Virus record (IMG/VR): IMGVR_UViG_3300045051_001472
Location: 1-26,437 of that record
DNA from: a virus
Length of the DNA: 26,437 bases
Strand: one strand, 5' to 3'
Program-made: the position numbers and the translations under genes
Notes under the pieces: generated by a model
Seen by the model: the letters and a program-made list of their open reading frames with translations, nothing else
What the model was told of the DNA's origin: nothing
Databases searched by the model: none
Part shown: positions 3,297-13,244 of the stretch, one piece after another
How positions within the stretch are numbered: the first letter of the stretch is position 1
Layout: every line of letters starts with the position of its first letter

Positions 3297-3773
3297 TTAA
3301 TTGTTGTACACACAAAAAATAATAACCAAATATTGTACGTACAAATTATTCATGATATTCATATTCACCTCCTTTTTAAACCCTGCATGATTAAAGTGAT
3401 ACTTGTCATTGGATACGGCAATAGTTATTGGTTTAATTTCACCATCACAGGTGTAAGCGTATATTCCAAGATTAAGTAGTACGCTAATAAAGTCATTTGA
3501 TACATCCTGAGCATTAGTAGTAAGATAAAATGATTCAATACTTACTTTTTTAGCAATAAAAATATTCAGGCATGATTGTATTATATCAGGAACAAGCGAT
3601 GGTTCACCCCCTGAAAATACAACACAATTTATGTCTGAGATTTTATTAACTGCAATGAATTTATTCAGCCATTCAGGATTAAAGTCCAGGTTCTGCGCGT
3701 TACCGCGAAGACAGTGTGGGCATTTCATATTGCACCGTCGCGTTACTTCGATAATCAGTTCGTTTAAGTTCAT
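3297..3773 (-). CDS. Radical SAM protein, apparently C-terminally truncated
   Basis: The N-terminus carries the [4Fe-4S] cluster motif CxxxCxxC (C14, C18, C21) and the SAM-binding GGEP motif (residues 55-58). A later SNDKYH segment (121-126) matches a family of phage and Bacteroidota radical SAM proteins that, as I recall, are close to 300 residues. Here the protein ends at 158, and the last 20 residues are low-complexity and encoded by AT-rich DNA containing two TGTAC operator-like palindromes. So the second half of the barrel is probably missing. The gene is the last of a five-gene overlapping operon and overlaps the gene before it by 4 nt. Possible roles include peptide or nucleotide modification; the substrate is unknown, and activity of the truncated form is doubtful. 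Confidence 0.8.
   Translation of the reverse strand: MNLNELIIEVTRRCNMKCPHCLRGNAQNLDFNPEWLNKFIAVNKISDINCVVFSGGEPSLVPDIIQSCLNIFIAKKVSIESFYLTTNAQDVSNDFISVLLNLGIYAYTCDGEIKPITIAVSNDKYHFNHAGFKKEVNMNIMNNLYVQYLVIIFCVYNN
3303..3345. promoter_or_regulatory. Pair of TTTGTRTGTACAAA-like palindromes
   Basis: Two copies 29 bp apart: GTTGTACACACAAA (3303-3316) and ATTGTACGTACAAA (3332-3345). They lie inside the 3' end of the radical SAM reading frame. The same spacing occurs at 16944/16973, where the sites overlap a promoter. They could form a minus-strand promoter that transcribes towards the terminator at 3225-3268, or serve as operator sites. Confidence 0.5.
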
Positions 3774-4015: not shown

Positions 4016-4251
4016 AAAAATAGTTTTAGGTTTTCGACTTCTTTTTTTCCTTCATCTGACATTGGACCAACATGCCATGATACTTCTGATAGTACAGCAC
4101 TGAGGATGATTTTAGGAACCAAAAAATTATCCTCGGTTCCTTCGATGTCTATCGCACCTGAATGAATTGCTTTTTCAATAGTTTTGTCAATGCATTCATT
4201 CATCTCTGCTCTTAGCAGTTCAATTTTCTTACGACACTGATCGTTTGTCAT
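4012..4251 (-). CDS. Hypothetical protein, 79 aa
   Basis: Third gene of the operon, with 4-nt overlaps on both sides. It is acidic and helical, with no cysteine pair or membrane segment. Family not recognised. Confidence 0.75.
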   Translation of the reverse strand: MTNDQCRKKIELLRAEMNECIDKTIEKAIHSGAIDIEGTEDNFLVPKIILSAVLSEVSWHVGPMSDEGKKEVENLKLFL

Positions 4252-4535
4252 TTGATTTTAGGTTTAACATTCCAGTTAATAATAATATCTCTCGTATCGC
4301 TGTCTGTCCAGTGATATATTCCTGACCGGTTAGTTTTATCGGTCTGGAACAACCCTGATGAAAAGATCAGCATTTTTGATTTTGCGGCAAACTTGGATTG
4401 CCATAAAGGATTATCGTGCGTCTTGAAATACTCTTCAAGTTTCAGGTAGTAGTCACGAAGTATTTCAAGAATGATGATCTGTGTATCATTAAACTCCATC
4501 TCCCGGAGAAATGAACGGTAGGTTCTTTTTTTCAT
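4248..4535 (-). CDS. Hypothetical protein, 95 aa
   Basis: Second gene of the operon, with 4-nt overlaps to both neighbours. It has a basic N-terminus and a helical first half, and a Trp-rich C-terminal half (HWTDSD, NWN). Family not recognised. Confidence 0.75.
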   Translation of the reverse strand: MKKRTYRSFLREMEFNDTQIIILEILRDYYLKLEEYFKTHDNPLWQSKFAAKSKMLIFSSGLFQTDKTNRSGIYHWTDSDTRDIIINWNVKPKIK

Positions 4536-5251
4536 TTGGTCTTCTGATAATTGAGTCCGTAATTGTGTAAAATAAATTCATAGTCATCAGTCACTTCCTT
4601 GTTAAACAGAAATGTAAGACGCGCTTTCATTTGTACAGGAAATTTATCCTTGTGATTAATTCCGTTGATGGCCACATAATGTTTCCACAGGCGATCGTCA
4701 TCATGGATCACATCAAGACTCGGCGCGGTAATAATATAAAACATCAGTGAATAATATGGTTTTACAAAGAATAATTTGTCCTTATCTACCAAATGTTCAG
4801 GATTTGTCTTGGGATATTGTGCCCAACAAGCTCCTTGTCTTATGTCCAATCCATAACGATCCATAAGGATATCCCGAATTTTCCGGTTGACCTGCTGTAT
4901 TTTTTCAACACAGCCGGCAACATAGTCAAATCCACATATTACAGCAGACTTGAATTCCTGTATTTTATCCTGAGCACAACAATCCTGGTCAAAAAGATCG
5001 TATCCTGTTATTGCATAAAATGTACAATATTTTCCATATTCGTTAAAATGAGCTTGCACATTCTCAGCAGTAAGATCGGGTATAAGTGGAACGGTTACCT
5101 CTTTACCTGATTTTTTCTTGTATCCCTTACCGGGGACAAAGATTTTTCCTTTTTCATATCCATTATCCGGGTAGAGCTCTCCGTCTACTTTCCATGCGGA
5201 AAATGGTTCTGTTGGAGTATAGTTAGAATGTATGCAGTAAAAAAACATCAT
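4532..5251 (-). CDS. Hypothetical protein, 239 aa, first gene of operon
   Basis: Opens the operon that ends with the radical SAM gene. It follows the terminator at 5276-5311 by a 24-nt AT-rich leader containing TAACCATAAAATAGA, the recurring pre-start sequence of this phage. Two ATG codons stand side by side; either may be used. The product has several cysteines (a DCC at about residue 91, CGF, GCV, GACW) and many aromatic residues, but not in a spacing I know. The family is unknown. Confidence 0.75.
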   Translation of the reverse strand: MMFFYCIHSNYTPTEPFSAWKVDGELYPDNGYEKGKIFVPGKGYKKKSGKEVTVPLIPDLTAENVQAHFNEYGKYCTFYAITGYDLFDQDCCAQDKIQEFKSAVICGFDYVAGCVEKIQQVNRKIRDILMDRYGLDIRQGACWAQYPKTNPEHLVDKDKLFFVKPYYSLMFYIITAPSLDVIHDDDRLWKHYVAINGINHKDKFPVQMKARLTFLFNKEVTDDYEFILHNYGLNYQKTK

Positions 5252-5275: not shown

Positions 5276-5311
5276 AAAAAAATAAACCCTCATCAATTTC
5301 TCAACGAGGGT
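5276..5311 (-). terminator. Intrinsic terminator with no protein gene upstream
   Basis: ACCCTC (5286-5291) pairs with GAGGGT (5306-5311). On the minus strand it is followed by TTTATTTTTTT. It has the same GGGTTTATTTTTT signature as terminators that follow protein genes here, but the sequence in front of it is the CRISPR-repeat-like region. Confidence 0.8.
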
Positions 5312-5356: not shown

Positions 5357-5365
5357 AGCATTTTA

Positions 5366-5465
5366 AAAAGCGCAGCTGTTTATCAATAAGTCAAAGATAC
5401 AATTTGAAAACAAATCACAACGGCCGAATCAGTGGGCTGGCGGCTTTGGATGGGGCTGCGCTTTT
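5366..5465 (-). ncRNA. Boxed RNA element: candidate RNA anti-CRISPR
   Basis: AAAAGCGCAGC (5366-5376) and GCTGCGCTTTT (5455-5465) form a perfect 11-bp inverted repeat that encloses the CRISPR-like repeat. On the minus strand the closing stem is followed by TTTTT, like a terminator; the plus strand has TTTT. The minus strand reads the repeat in crRNA orientation, and a strong terminator lies 55 nt further on, so minus-strand transcription is favoured. Read on the plus strand, the element would be an anti-repeat followed by a GGCCG...CGGCT stem-loop, which is the layout of a tracrRNA. Both readings would interfere with, or feed, a host Cas9. No cas gene is in the window. Function is inference. 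Confidence 0.5.
5375..5421 (-). repeat. Solitary type II-C CRISPR-repeat-like sequence
   Basis: A 47-nt sequence on the minus strand beginning GTTGTGATTTG and ending AAACAGC. Aligned by eye with the 47-nt type II-C repeat of Bacteroides fragilis as I remember it, it shares the blocks GTTGTGATTTG, TTTCAAATT, GTATCTTTGA, ATTG and AAACAGC in the same order, roughly 41 positions, with one base lost and one gained. The internal ATTTG/CAAAT palindrome of the natural repeat is kept. I found only one copy in the window, so this is not an array. Confidence 0.75.
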
Positions 5466-5625
5466 ATAAAAGATAACAAAAGGATTTTTCACGTAAACGA
5501 TATAACCGGTATGTTTACACTCTATGGATTGCATACTAATTCCAAGAGTATATCTTCAAAAATTACAAAGATGTCAAGAGCGGCTTGATTCCCTTACGAC
5601 TGCGTATATCAGCCTTAGAATTTTT

Positions 5626-5667
5626 TTTAAAAGTGCAGGCGCCCTGACTATATGAAGCGCCCGCACT
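5626..5667 (-). terminator. Terminator after 5727-6050 gene
   Basis: An 11-bp stem with one G-U pair: AGTGCAGGCGC (5632-5642) and GCGCCCGCACT (5657-5667). On the minus strand it ends CACTTTT before an A-run, so the T-tract is short. It lies about 60 nt past the stop of the 107-aa gene. Confidence 0.65.
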
Positions 5668-5726
5668 AACCTAACTAACCCTTAAACTTAAACCAAATGA
5701 AATGCCTGACAAATATAATAATAAAA

Positions 5727-6050
5727 CTACCGGGAAGTTGGTTTATCAGAAGGTTTGTGAAAACATTTGAAGTCATCGCGGCTGACTGTTTTTGTTCCCC
5801 TATTGAATCGCTGCCACGTTTTGCAGGTGATCGTCATCATGTTGGGATGGGAAAATCCCGTAATGGTGTAAATTCCGTTAATCGACCTGGCATGAATCTT
5901 TGCACCCACATACAGTTCGGGATGTGACACGGTATACGGTTTTGCATCTTTTGGGAAATATTCGCAGTAATTGATCCATTTCCTCCAAAGCATATAATGG
6001 TATTTACTCATCATTAAACCGTTGCTGATGAGTCTTGTTTTGTTTTTCAT
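5727..6050 (-). CDS. Hypothetical protein, 107 aa
   Basis: A single-gene unit with a terminator on each side. The basic product has a central segment (about residues 45-95) of alternating hydrophobic strands ending SRDDFKCF, which reads like a small beta domain. The ATG at 6050 follows the leader TAATCCTTTAAATTA, the recurring pre-start sequence. A plus-strand reading starting at 5697 overlaps it and is rejected. Family unknown. Confidence 0.7.
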   Translation of the reverse strand: MKNKTRLISNGLMMSKYHYMLWRKWINYCEYFPKDAKPYTVSHPELYVGAKIHARSINGIYTITGFSHPNMMTITCKTWQRFNRGTKTVSRDDFKCFHKPSDKPTSR

Positions 6051-6414: not shown

Positions 6415-6599
6415 TTGAAGTTTTTAAGTGAATTTTCAATTTGCTTTTTGGTGATATGTGTTCCGCCAAATGAAGGATTGGAATCGAAGAATTTCCATTT
6501 GTTCTTTACGAGTCCGATATACCCTTCGGTCCGATTATGAATTTTCATTGTAAGCCAGATATCCTGAAGTTCTGATTTGGACACTTTAGATTCACTCAT
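6411..6599 (-). CDS. Hypothetical protein, 62 aa
   Basis: A small basic soluble protein in the middle of a three-gene operon, overlapping both neighbours by 4 nt. No motif recognised. Confidence 0.7.
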   Translation of the reverse strand: MSESKVSKSELQDIWLTMKIHNRTEGYIGLVKNKWKFFDSNPSFGGTHITKKQIENSLKNFK

Positions 6600-7270
6600 A
6601 ATAAGTTGAATCTGACTTTGATAACTTCGATGATAGCAAGATATTCTTTTGCATACTTATTATTGCCATGTGTTTCAATTACTTGTTTTGTAAATTGTTC
6701 GATAGTTCCAGAAAAACATCCACAATAAATTTTGACTTTATTTTCAGTTTCCTTAAAAACGGTAGTTGTTCTATTTGAACTGCCAAACGACTGAAAACAG
6801 CAATAATCGACATCACCAGAAATCCGGGCATCACCAGAAATCCGGGCATTACCATAAATCTGGGCATCACCAGAAATCCGGGCATTACCATAAATCCGGG
6901 CATTACCATAAATCTGGGCATCACCAGAAATCCAGGCATTACCATAAATCTGGGCATCACCATAAATCCGGGCATTACCATAAATCTGGGCATCACCAGA
7001 AATCCAGGCATTACCATAAATCTGGGCATCACCAGAAATCCGGGCATTACCAGAAATCCGGGCATCACCAGAAATCCGGGCATCACCAGAAATCCGGGCA
7101 TTACCATAAATCCAGGCATTACCAGAAAGATTGGTTTCTTTTTCAATCCATCCACCAAAATCGCCTATTTCGGCATATTTAATTTTTTTAGTACACTTGA
7201 TCTGAAATAATTTAACTCCGAGAGAATTTATTTTAAAATTCTCAGTTAATTCAAAATATTTTTCATTCAT
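6596..7270 (-). CDS. Hexapeptide-repeat left-handed beta-helix protein
   Basis: The product has 224 residues. Residues 1-50 form a cap with the typical GDFGGWIEKE segment just before the repeats. Residues 51-152 are 17 uninterrupted six-residue repeats of the form [ND]-A-[RQW]-I-[SY]-G, which build a left-handed parallel beta-helix. Residues 153-224 form a short capping domain (YCGCFSGTIEQF). This arrangement is common in phage proteins annotated as polymer-forming or YdcK-like hexapeptide proteins; a catalytic role has not been shown. First gene of the 7270-6160 operon, overlapping the next by 4 nt. The strongly repetitive DNA also opens long spurious frames on both strands. Confidence 0.85.
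   Translation of the reverse strand: MNEKYFELTENFKINSLGVKLFQIKCTKKIKYAEIGDFGGWIEKETNLSGNAWIYGNARISGDARISGDARISGNARISGDAQIYGNAWISGDAQIYGNARIYGDAQIYGNAWISGDAQIYGNARIYGNARISGDAQIYGNARISGDARISGDVDYCCFQSFGSSNRTTTVFKETENKVKIYCGCFSGTIEQFTKQVIETHGNNKYAKEYLAIIEVIKVRFNLL
6815..7120 (-). repeat. 17 tandem 18-bp repeats inside the beta-helix gene
   Basis: Units of 18 bp such as GGCATCACCAGAAATCCG (plus strand) run without a break, with few synonymous differences between neighbouring units. The near-identity at DNA level, including third codon positions, means recent expansion by slippage or unequal recombination, and copy number is likely to vary between relatives. Confidence 0.9.
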
Positions 7271-11854: not shown

Positions 11855-12352
11855 TTACTGATTATTGAATTTTCTGAATGTTTCAATCCAAAGTTTTTTC
11901 GAGGTTTTTACCGAAAACCTGCTCATTTCCGCAACCATATTTAATGCGTCAGCAATTTCTTGCGGACTCAGCGTGCTCGTGGCAGAATAAACCGTGCAAA
12001 CTTCGTTTTTCCATGATTCTTTGGGAGTGTTGTCAATTATATTGTACACTTTACCCACTCGCTTAATAATTGAATATTTATCCATTGTTAAAGTTTTAGG
12101 TATGTATTTGCCATCCGCTGGCCGGTTCGATTGAAACACTGAACGTGGGAGCCTGTCCGGATCCGATATATCCTGGAACATCTGATCATAACATTCGCCG
12201 CATATTCCCGAGATAATGATTTCGCGTTCTGCCGGAGTAAGATTTAGACATACATTTTGAATCTTTACTCCCATCGAATGACGGAAAAGCTGTTCATCGG
12301 TCACATTGACATTAACATGTTTGTGACAACAGATACACTCGTATGTTTTCAT
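11855..12352 (-). CDS. Zinc-finger-like protein, 165 aa
   Basis: The ATG at 12352 overlaps the TAA of the upstream gene by one base and is preferred over 12418. The N-terminal part carries C6/C9 and, after an insertion, C51/C54 (CGEC), which could bind one zinc. The C-terminal part is helical. A nucleic-acid or protein-binding role is likely but not shown. Confidence 0.75.
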   Translation of the reverse strand: MKTYECICCHKHVNVNVTDEQLFRHSMGVKIQNVCLNLTPAEREIIISGICGECYDQMFQDISDPDRLPRSVFQSNRPADGKYIPKTLTMDKYSIIKRVGKVYNIIDNTPKESWKNEVCTVYSATSTLSPQEIADALNMVAEMSRFSVKTSKKLWIETFRKFNNQ

Positions 12353-12663
12353 TATCTTGTTTTTAAAGGTTTGATGACGGCAAAAAGATGTCTGGTCCAC
12401 AAAAGATCGAGATTGCACCAGATATCTATTTCATCATAGGGCCATTTAAATGCTCCGATAACAGGTGCAGTAATTATTCCCCTGGAGTAAATAATATCAC
12501 CGATCCATTTATCAAATGATATTGAATATCCCATTTTCCTGAAGTTTTTCATGAATTTATGATAAACCCCATGCCTGCGTAAAAAGGACACGAACAATTG
12601 TTTCAGTTTCCTTTTACCGATACTTTTTCTGAAAATATCTTCCTGGATGATATTTCTGGTCAT
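12352..12663 (-). CDS. Tandem paralogue 3 of FVSFLRRHGVY family
   Basis: The 103-residue product contains LFVSFLRRHGVYHKF near its N-terminus and a Trp-rich C-terminal part (FKW, then IDIWCNLDLLW). It aligns over its length with the two upstream genes. Related small proteins with 'F-x-W...fW..i...W' patterns are, as I recall, common in Bacteroidota phages without known function. Confidence 0.75.
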   Translation of the reverse strand: MTRNIIQEDIFRKSIGKRKLKQLFVSFLRRHGVYHKFMKNFRKMGYSISFDKWIGDIIYSRGIITAPVIGAFKWPYDEIDIWCNLDLLWTRHLFAVIKPLKTR

Positions 12664-12667
12664 GATA

Positions 12668-12952
12668 TCATGATATCAGTCGTTTACACTGTTCTCGCCA
12701 CAAAAGATCATACTTTTTCCAGAATTCATTCTGGTCATAATCAATATGAGAATTACCAAGGCTTTTATGCCATATAAATCCTCTGAGAATGACTTTTTCC
12801 ATTTTATTCTCAAATGAATGGTTGATCAGCCAATGATTTAAGTCAAGCTTGTTATCAGGATTGATATCGTAAGCTTTTTTAAATTTGCTGTATATCCCGT
12901 GTCTCTTTAAGAATGACACGAAATGTGATTTGGTTATTTTATTTCGGTTCAT
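12668..12952 (-). CDS. Tandem paralogue 2 of FVSFLRRHGVY family
   Basis: The ATG at 12952 gives 94 residues starting MNRNKITKSHFVSFLKRHG and a 14-nt overlap with the upstream gene; an upstream ATG at 12997 would overlap more. HFVSFLKRHGIYSKF matches the first and third paralogues, and the C-terminal part has FIW and FWKKYDLLW. Product of local gene duplication. Confidence 0.75.
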   Translation of the reverse strand: MNRNKITKSHFVSFLKRHGIYSKFKKAYDINPDNKLDLNHWLINHSFENKMEKVILRGFIWHKSLGNSHIDYDQNEFWKKYDLLWREQCKRLIS

Positions 12953-13244
12953 GCTCGGTGGTGTTGAATTTGGTTTCGGGAGCGTTCTTGTTGACAACTG
13001 CAGTATAGTGAGCGCACCATTTCTTATTAAGCGTGCTCCATTTCAGAATCTCGCCATTGGGCCAGATAAAAGAGTTGTAGAAAAAGCCTAAGGGATGTAC
13101 TTTTTTTACATTGATATAGTAGTCGATAGTTATTCCTGATCCATCGACTTTGTGGTGTTCTTTTAATTTCTTTGAGAAGTCATGGTATACCTTCTCTCTT
13201 CTGAGGAAAGATACGAATAAAGATTTTACGTCAATTGTACTCAT
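12939..13244 (-). CDS. Tandem paralogue 1 of FVSFLRRHGVY family
   Basis: The 101-residue product contains LFVSFLRREKVYHDF near the N-terminus, then FIWPNG and a Trp-rich end (KWSTLNKKW). It opens the run and follows the leader TAAACCCTTAAAACTA, the recurring pre-start sequence. The three copies have diverged strongly, so the duplication is not recent. Confidence 0.75.
   Translation of the reverse strand: MSTIDVKSLFVSFLRREKVYHDFSKKLKEHHKVDGSGITIDYYINVKKVHPLGFFYNSFIWPNGEILKWSTLNKKWCAHYTAVVNKNAPETKFNTTEHEPK

Follow-up and report, generated by a model that had tools for sequence, protein, structure and literature searches.

A phage-borne, solitary Bacteroidota type II-C CRISPR repeat as a candidate RNA anti-CRISPR

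Introduction

What is the purpose of a single CRISPR repeat in a phage, with neither an array nor a cas gene beside it? The question is raised by a 47-nt sequence in the IMG/VR virus record IMGVR_UViG_3300045051_001472, a 26.4-kb record that is probably a fragment and that was analyzed over its whole length of 26,437 nt (the window). A sequence-only reading of the window had pointed to the resemblance between these 47 nt and the type II-C repeat of Bacteroides and had put the locus forward as a candidate RNA anti-CRISPR.

Solitary repeat units (SRUs) in viruses have been described, and RacrIF1 and other RNA anti-CRISPRs (Racrs) of this origin inhibit CRISPR types I-C, I-E, I-F, and V-A (Camara-Wilpert et al. 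2023; PMC10651486). RacrIF1 acts via Cas6f and Cas7f, and Racr candidates were reported for all CRISPR types except VI, with IMG/VR among the sources that were searched (PMC10651486). A review describes two further viral strategies: mini-arrays, and a RuvC-inactive Cas9 encoded by a phage, which probably uses a phage tracrRNA to sequester crRNAs (PMC11656645).

Results and Discussion

A 47-nt match to Bacteroidota type II-C repeats.

The minus-strand sequence GTTGTGATTTGTTTTCAAATTGTATCTTTGACTTATTGATAAACAGC occupies exactly positions 5421 to 5375 of the window. When 84,980 species genomes were scanned with the core pattern GTTGTGATTTGNTTTCAAATT(N0-2)GTATCTTTGA, 54 stretches were recovered, nearly all of them Bacteroidota CRISPR arrays with a period of ∼77 nt. 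The best relative was a Bacteroidia repeat (L051), which aligned with the phage copy without gaps over the whole 47 nt and was identical at 45 positions, the two differences in the phage copy being C12T and A46G. The array repeats of L020, L022, L025, L036, L038, and L043 were identical at 44 of 47 positions, also without gaps. The repeat form of gut Bacteroides and Phocaeicola, which has an extra A and ACCATTGGAAACAGC, was identical to the phage copy at ∼41 positions, the figure that the sequence-only reading had given for Bacteroides; a second form, without the extra A and with GACNTATTGATAAACAAC or GACTTACTGATAAACACC at its 3′ end, was far nearer. The repeat-like sequence was thus confirmed in place and strand, and its match to other Bacteroidia proved closer than had been claimed.

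Approximately 3e-20 matches with two or fewer mismatches would be expected by chance per repeat in this window. The Rfam model CRISPR-DR49 (RF01362) matched exactly positions 5375 to 5421 of the minus strand over its full length (1 to 47 of 47; E = 0.00035), with a score of 35.3 bits, which is below the gathering score of 41. Chance similarity was ruled out by an expectation of about 1e-20 together with this independent match, and the resemblance on which the earlier proposal turned withstood comparison with the repeats and tracrRNAs of Bacteroidota. The phage sequence belongs to the same 47-nt class as the Bacteroidota type II-C repeats but differs from them in being a single copy with no spacers.

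A single, intergenic copy of the repeat.

The whole record contains one match to the repeat pattern. Within 140 nt on either side, no second copy better than shuffled sequence was found, the best flank alignments being equalled or beaten by 57 of 500 and 281 of 500 shuffles. An upstream sequence, TATCTTTTATAAAAGCGCAGC, is faintly like the end of a repeat and was considered as the trace of a degenerate mini-array, a possibility that was rejected because the 57 shuffles did as well. No match to cas families was detected among the window proteins searched, which come from a 26-kb fragment. Thus, the earlier statement that there is no array and no cas gene was borne out for the flanks and for these proteins.

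The repeat copy is located in a 475-nt gap between two minus-strand open reading frames (ORFs), an upstream neighbor of 107 amino acids (positions 5727 to 6050) and a downstream neighbor of 239 amino acids (positions 4532 to 5251), neither of which was assigned to a known family in the family searches. In this part of the window, the ORFs that probably represent genes are on the minus strand. A 68-amino-acid plus-strand ORF overlaps the repeat copy, and this ORF is without support. A neighbor-protein search returned no viral relatives, and no known anti-CRISPR was recognized next to the repeat in family searches; single-sequence structure models of the two neighboring proteins had pLDDT values of 46 and 35 and were unusable.

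The SRUFinder cut-offs are at least 90% identity, at least 90% coverage, and a bit score of at least 41.1 (PMC10651486). With blastn-short the phage copy had 97.8% identity to the L051 repeat, with 45 of 47 nt covered and a score of 81.8 bits, in a comparison with repeats fetched here rather than with the published repeat database; the top score elsewhere in the window was 28.2 bits. Our own shuffle test, rather than the exact flank rule of the pipeline, gave no sign of another repeat, whole or partial, within 100 nt, and the copy is intergenic. By the cut-offs applied, the sequence qualifies as a solitary repeat unit. It also shares with the Racrs the lack of associated cas genes, within the window proteins searched, and it has one repeat only, compared to the two or more repeats and the spacer or spacers of a viral mini-array. 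The agreement of several independent tests supports the presence of a type II-C solitary repeat in a Bacteroidota-associated phage.

Predicted RNA around the repeat.

In type II-C systems the guide lies 5′ of the repeat, and the first half of the repeat pairs with the tracrRNA. In the phage the guide position is taken by a GC-rich, hairpin-forming block of 30 to 33 nt (positions 5422 to 5454, minus strand), and the block and the repeat are enclosed by a 16-nt inverted repeat that is 88% complementary. The 5′ arm of the inverted repeat is at positions 5455 to 5470 and the 3′ arm, GCTGCGCTTTTTAAAA, which includes a terminator-like T run, is at positions 5361 to 5376, both read on the minus strand; the 3′ arm overlaps the 3′ end of the repeat by two bases. 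Directly before the first stem arm is TATCTTTT (positions 5468 to 5475, minus strand), a possible match to the Bacteroidota −7 box, the consensus of which is TAnnTTTG. As boxes of this kind occur often in the window, at ∼2 per kb by chance, this one is weak evidence of a promoter. On the minus strand, TATCTTTT is therefore followed by one stem arm, the GC hairpin, the repeat, the other stem arm, and a U-run, an order from which we infer that a non-coding RNA of ∼103 nt (positions 5365 to 5467) may be transcribed from the minus strand. The predicted fold of this RNA (−29.3 kcal/mol; z, −4.19) was not equalled by any of 200 shuffles, and z ranged from −4.2 to −4.3 across tests.

A second −7 box, TATCTTTG, lies within the repeat itself (positions 5392 to 5399, minus strand) and matches the full consensus, so the repeat could fire transcription leftwards, towards position 5286. 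A strong intrinsic terminator, with an 11-pair stem and a T-run, is located 3′ of the repeat at positions 5286 to 5311 (minus strand), and the 117 nt downstream of the repeat fold well and end at this terminator. The full box is also present in the array repeats of L036, L033, L002, L020, and other Bacteroidota, which suggests that host repeats may each be able to start transcription of the next spacer. Repeats of the type II-C arrays of Neisseria are known to do so.

The full box in the phage repeat and the well-folded 117 nt are favorable to the alternative that survives best, namely that the phage captured a repeat from a host array and put it to another use, as a promoter for a structured RNA reaching down to position 5286 or as an integration or recombination site, or simply kept it as a neutral relic. 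Repeat-like sequences have been proposed to serve viral integration into arrays (PMC10651486). However, no integrase was recognized among the window proteins searched, a promoter alone would have no need of the conserved half of the repeat that pairs with tracrRNA, and 45 of 47 identical positions inside a neat inverted repeat would not be expected of a relic unless the capture was very recent. Thus, it seems unlikely that capture for such other uses accounts for the locus.

The guide-position block.

If the 30 nt before the repeat were a real guide, the locus would be a minimal viral crRNA that borrows the host Cas9 and tracrRNA against a competitor or a host gene. One downstream type II-C repeat could suffice for this if transcription begins upstream. 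The length of the block is near that of host spacers (∼30 nt), its composition is distinct (63% GC compared to 41% for the window), and a type II-C mini-array with two spacers on another phage contig (L063) indicates that the strategy exists in this setting. The block folds into a hairpin of −7.5 kcal/mol, a value that 37 of 583 host spacers equalled or exceeded in stability, and 29 of the 583 were as GC-rich, which places its GC content in the top 5%; the block is therefore unusual yet inside the range of spacers.

The search for a target argues against a guide. With up to 3 mismatches allowed, no target was found in 395 Bacteroidia genomes, and no plasmid target was found at 80% coverage. 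At the same coverage there was one weak phage match (E = 1), and three 18-mer matches to viral contigs were at the chance level. A guide with a real target was rejected, as nothing convincing came from the genomes, plasmids, phages, or viral contigs. Together with the hairpin, the high GC content, and the absence of an upstream repeat from the shuffle-tested flank, this makes a minimal crRNA improbable. The locus and the viral mini-arrays (PMC11656645; L063) are alike in that a phage uses host-type repeats, whereas mini-arrays have at least two repeats with spacers and the phage copy is one repeat with no recognizable spacer target.

Predicted pairing with host tracrRNA.

The second repeat form occurs in L036 together with Cas9 (1,538 amino acids), Cas1, Cas2, and a tracrRNA on the opposite strand. 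Related repeats in L033 and L050 are also beside Cas9, with opposite-strand tracrRNA matches in both. Neither Csn2 nor Cas4 was seen among the few ORFs examined, which is consistent with type II-C. The host tracrRNAs have TACAATTTGAA(A)GCAAATCACAATAAGGATTATTCCGTTGTGAAAACATT in common, so the anti-repeat spans just the first ∼24 of the 47 repeat nucleotides. It is followed by the tail TAAGGATTATTCCGTTGTGAAAACATT, which is absent beside the phage copy.

A type II tracrRNA has a partial anti-repeat followed by its cognate nexus and tail. The plus strand of the phage locus likewise has an anti-repeat followed by a hairpin and a U-run, but its tail is unlike those of the host tracrRNAs and its anti-repeat is far longer than those seen in L036, L033, and L050. 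A copy of a tracrRNA was ruled out, since there is no nexus or tail and the homology extends past the ∼24-nt anti-repeat; homology over all 47 nt in a flank without the tracrRNA tail indicates that the phage copy derives from an array repeat. A plus-strand, tracrRNA-like antisense decoy that diverts pre-crRNA repeats from the real tracrRNA is the least probable of the alternatives, because, although the inverted repeat yields a stem and U-run on that strand too and the layout of full anti-repeat, hairpin, and terminator resembles a tracrRNA, host anti-repeats stop where the missing tail should begin, no plus-strand promoter candidate lies upstream, the neighboring genes run along the minus strand, and an antisense RNA would be mismatched at the two positions that differ from the L051 repeat, differences that would be harmless in a repeat mimic.

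Read from the minus strand, repeat nucleotides 1 to 24 (positions 5398 to 5421) are predicted to pair with the host anti-repeat. Duplexes of the phage repeat with four host tracrRNAs, computed with RNAduplex, ranged from −22.6 to −31.1 kcal/mol, compared to −25.0 to −33.5 kcal/mol for the native repeat and a mean of about −12 kcal/mol for shuffles. The L036 tracrRNA gave −26.4 kcal/mol with the phage repeat and −28.8 kcal/mol with the native one, the shuffles again being near −12 kcal/mol. The paired region has one difference, C12 to U, which can remain a U-G wobble, and in cofolding the tracrRNA paired with nucleotides 1 to 26 of the phage repeat. In a pseudoknot-free computation, the closing stem competes with tracrRNA pairing: the net gain was −4.6 kcal/mol for the clamped phage RNA versus −22.9 kcal/mol for the unclamped native form. 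The gain is this small because, in this algorithm, the duplex can form only once the clamp is opened, and as clamp and duplex are not representable together, the true gain is probably larger.

A candidate type II-C RNA anti-CRISPR.

The analysis shows the match to the repeat, its solitary location between genes, the inverted repeat built around it, and, by computation, its pairing with tracrRNA. The interpretation that we place first, at a probability of roughly 0.55, is that the locus is a type II-C Racr candidate whose RNA would tie up tracrRNA and Cas9, ahead of capture for another use, then a single viral guide, then a plus-strand decoy. Under this interpretation, a small RNA gene transcribed leftwards from the minus strand would bear one host-type II-C repeat, preceded in the guide position by 30 to 33 nt that fold on themselves and do not target, and closed by a stem ending in a terminator. 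If the infected cell has a matching type II-C system, as we infer for the host, repeat nucleotides 1 to 24 would form a duplex with its tracrRNA, and this duplex would enter Cas9 as a crRNA would. The resulting complex would be without a usable guide, and tracrRNA and Cas9 would thereby be diverted from phage-targeting crRNAs. Such a decoy is the most economical reading of the pairing and the non-targeting hairpin. A more specific version, to which we give somewhat less than an even chance, is a natural Cas9 anti-CRISPR RNA that titrates tracrRNA, in which a stem-clamped II-C repeat with a hairpin in place of the guide would leave Cas9 unable to read DNA.

An anti-CRISPR function fits the anatomy of the locus and the published solitary-repeat class; of the sequence-only interpretation, the part on a solitary type II-C repeat in a phage associated with Bacteroidota stood up to several independent tests, and the proposed inhibitory role is in line with that anatomy and class. 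Like the Racrs (PMC10651486), the locus has one full-length, host-like repeat, is intergenic and viral, lacks cas genes, and likely specifies a small structured non-coding RNA. It differs in its inverted repeat, which clamps the CRISPR repeat, and in the hairpin ahead of that CRISPR repeat. A II-C version would also need tracrRNA and Cas9, unlike the tested I-C, I-E, I-F, and V-A examples, and a mechanism other than that published for I-F would be required in such a tracrRNA-dependent system.

The suggestion that a type II-C version would be new holds in part. Type II candidates exist as predictions, given that candidates were published for all types except VI from sources that included IMG/VR, and this locus may already be among them. 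RNA anti-CRISPR activity has been demonstrated against types I and V, and no tested example against Cas9 or type II was found in the open-access literature searched. Because Cas9 requires tracrRNA, mimicry of the repeat could interfere at a step missing from types I and V-A. The type II-C specificity and the clamped architecture make the phage locus worth testing. If the interpretation is correct, a short, self-contained natural RNA would jam type II-C Cas9, which is easily tested and might provide an off-switch, and repeat mimicry would reach the most widely used CRISPR effector.

Other repeat-like sequences in viral contigs.

Further viral sequences with repeat-like features were observed. 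The phage contig with the mini-array (IMGVR_UViG_3300029998_001016; L063, positions 1600 to 1790) has tail- and lysin-like genes, and its small type II-C array has two intact 47-nt repeats, GTTGTGATTTGCTTTCAAAAAATTGTATCTTTGACTTGATAAACAAC, a third that is degenerate, a pair of 30-nt spacers, and a terminator; no match to either spacer was found in the phage collection. In IMGVR_UViG_3300027271_000025 (L061, positions 5578 to 5909), a CRISPR array and a truncated portal gene adjoin each other at the contig end. This may be a host array that was joined to the phage in assembly, via a shared spacer and protospacer, rather than a phage-borne array. IMGVR_UViG_3300012942_001077 (L060, positions 4206 to 4251), a phage contig with small and large terminase subunits, has a lone intergenic 46-nt repeat-like sequence, GTTGTGATTTGCTTTCAAATTTTCAGTAGCTTAGTTCTTCGACAAC, and is a second solitary-repeat candidate; a matching array was present in none of the 395 sampled genomes, and its Rfam match was weak (E, 0.46). 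Five other viral matches to the 19-nt core (L056, L057, L058, L059, and L062) were rejected as unlike full repeats, and that of L062 is inside a probable small coding frame.

The phage and its likely host.

The window includes genes for a terminase (PHROG 6681), a portal protein (PHROG 6547), and an exonuclease. Terminase relatives in IMG/VR had roughly 45 to 49% identity, one of them on a 93.7-kb contig, and the crAss-like phages cr124_1 and cr131_1 gave distant matches only. A Bacteroidota host is likely, based on the repeat and a weak DUF3871 match. Matching repeats with Cas9, Cas1, and Cas2 are present in Bacteroidia, and no spacer from the 54 array loci clearly matched the phage; when 585 extracted spacers were compared with it, the best among the matches listed was a 15-nt exact match, which is within chance. 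The repeat element was absent from the nine records searched of 13 terminase relatives found, which points, on present evidence, to a lineage-specific acquisition.

Several other features of the window were observed. A Radical SAM domain protein (Pfam PF04055; E = 1e-8) is encoded in the phage at positions 3297 to 3773. The minus-strand ORF at positions 6596 to 7270 has many imperfect hexapeptide repeats (such as GNARIS and GDAQIY) and matches PHROGs 7964 and 5070, both of unknown function; two other frames of the same DNA are also open over long stretches and encode repeats. Three consecutive minus-strand ORFs of ∼100 amino acids at positions 12352 to 13244 have a common motif like FVSFLRRxGVYxKF and are apparently tandem paralogues of unknown function.
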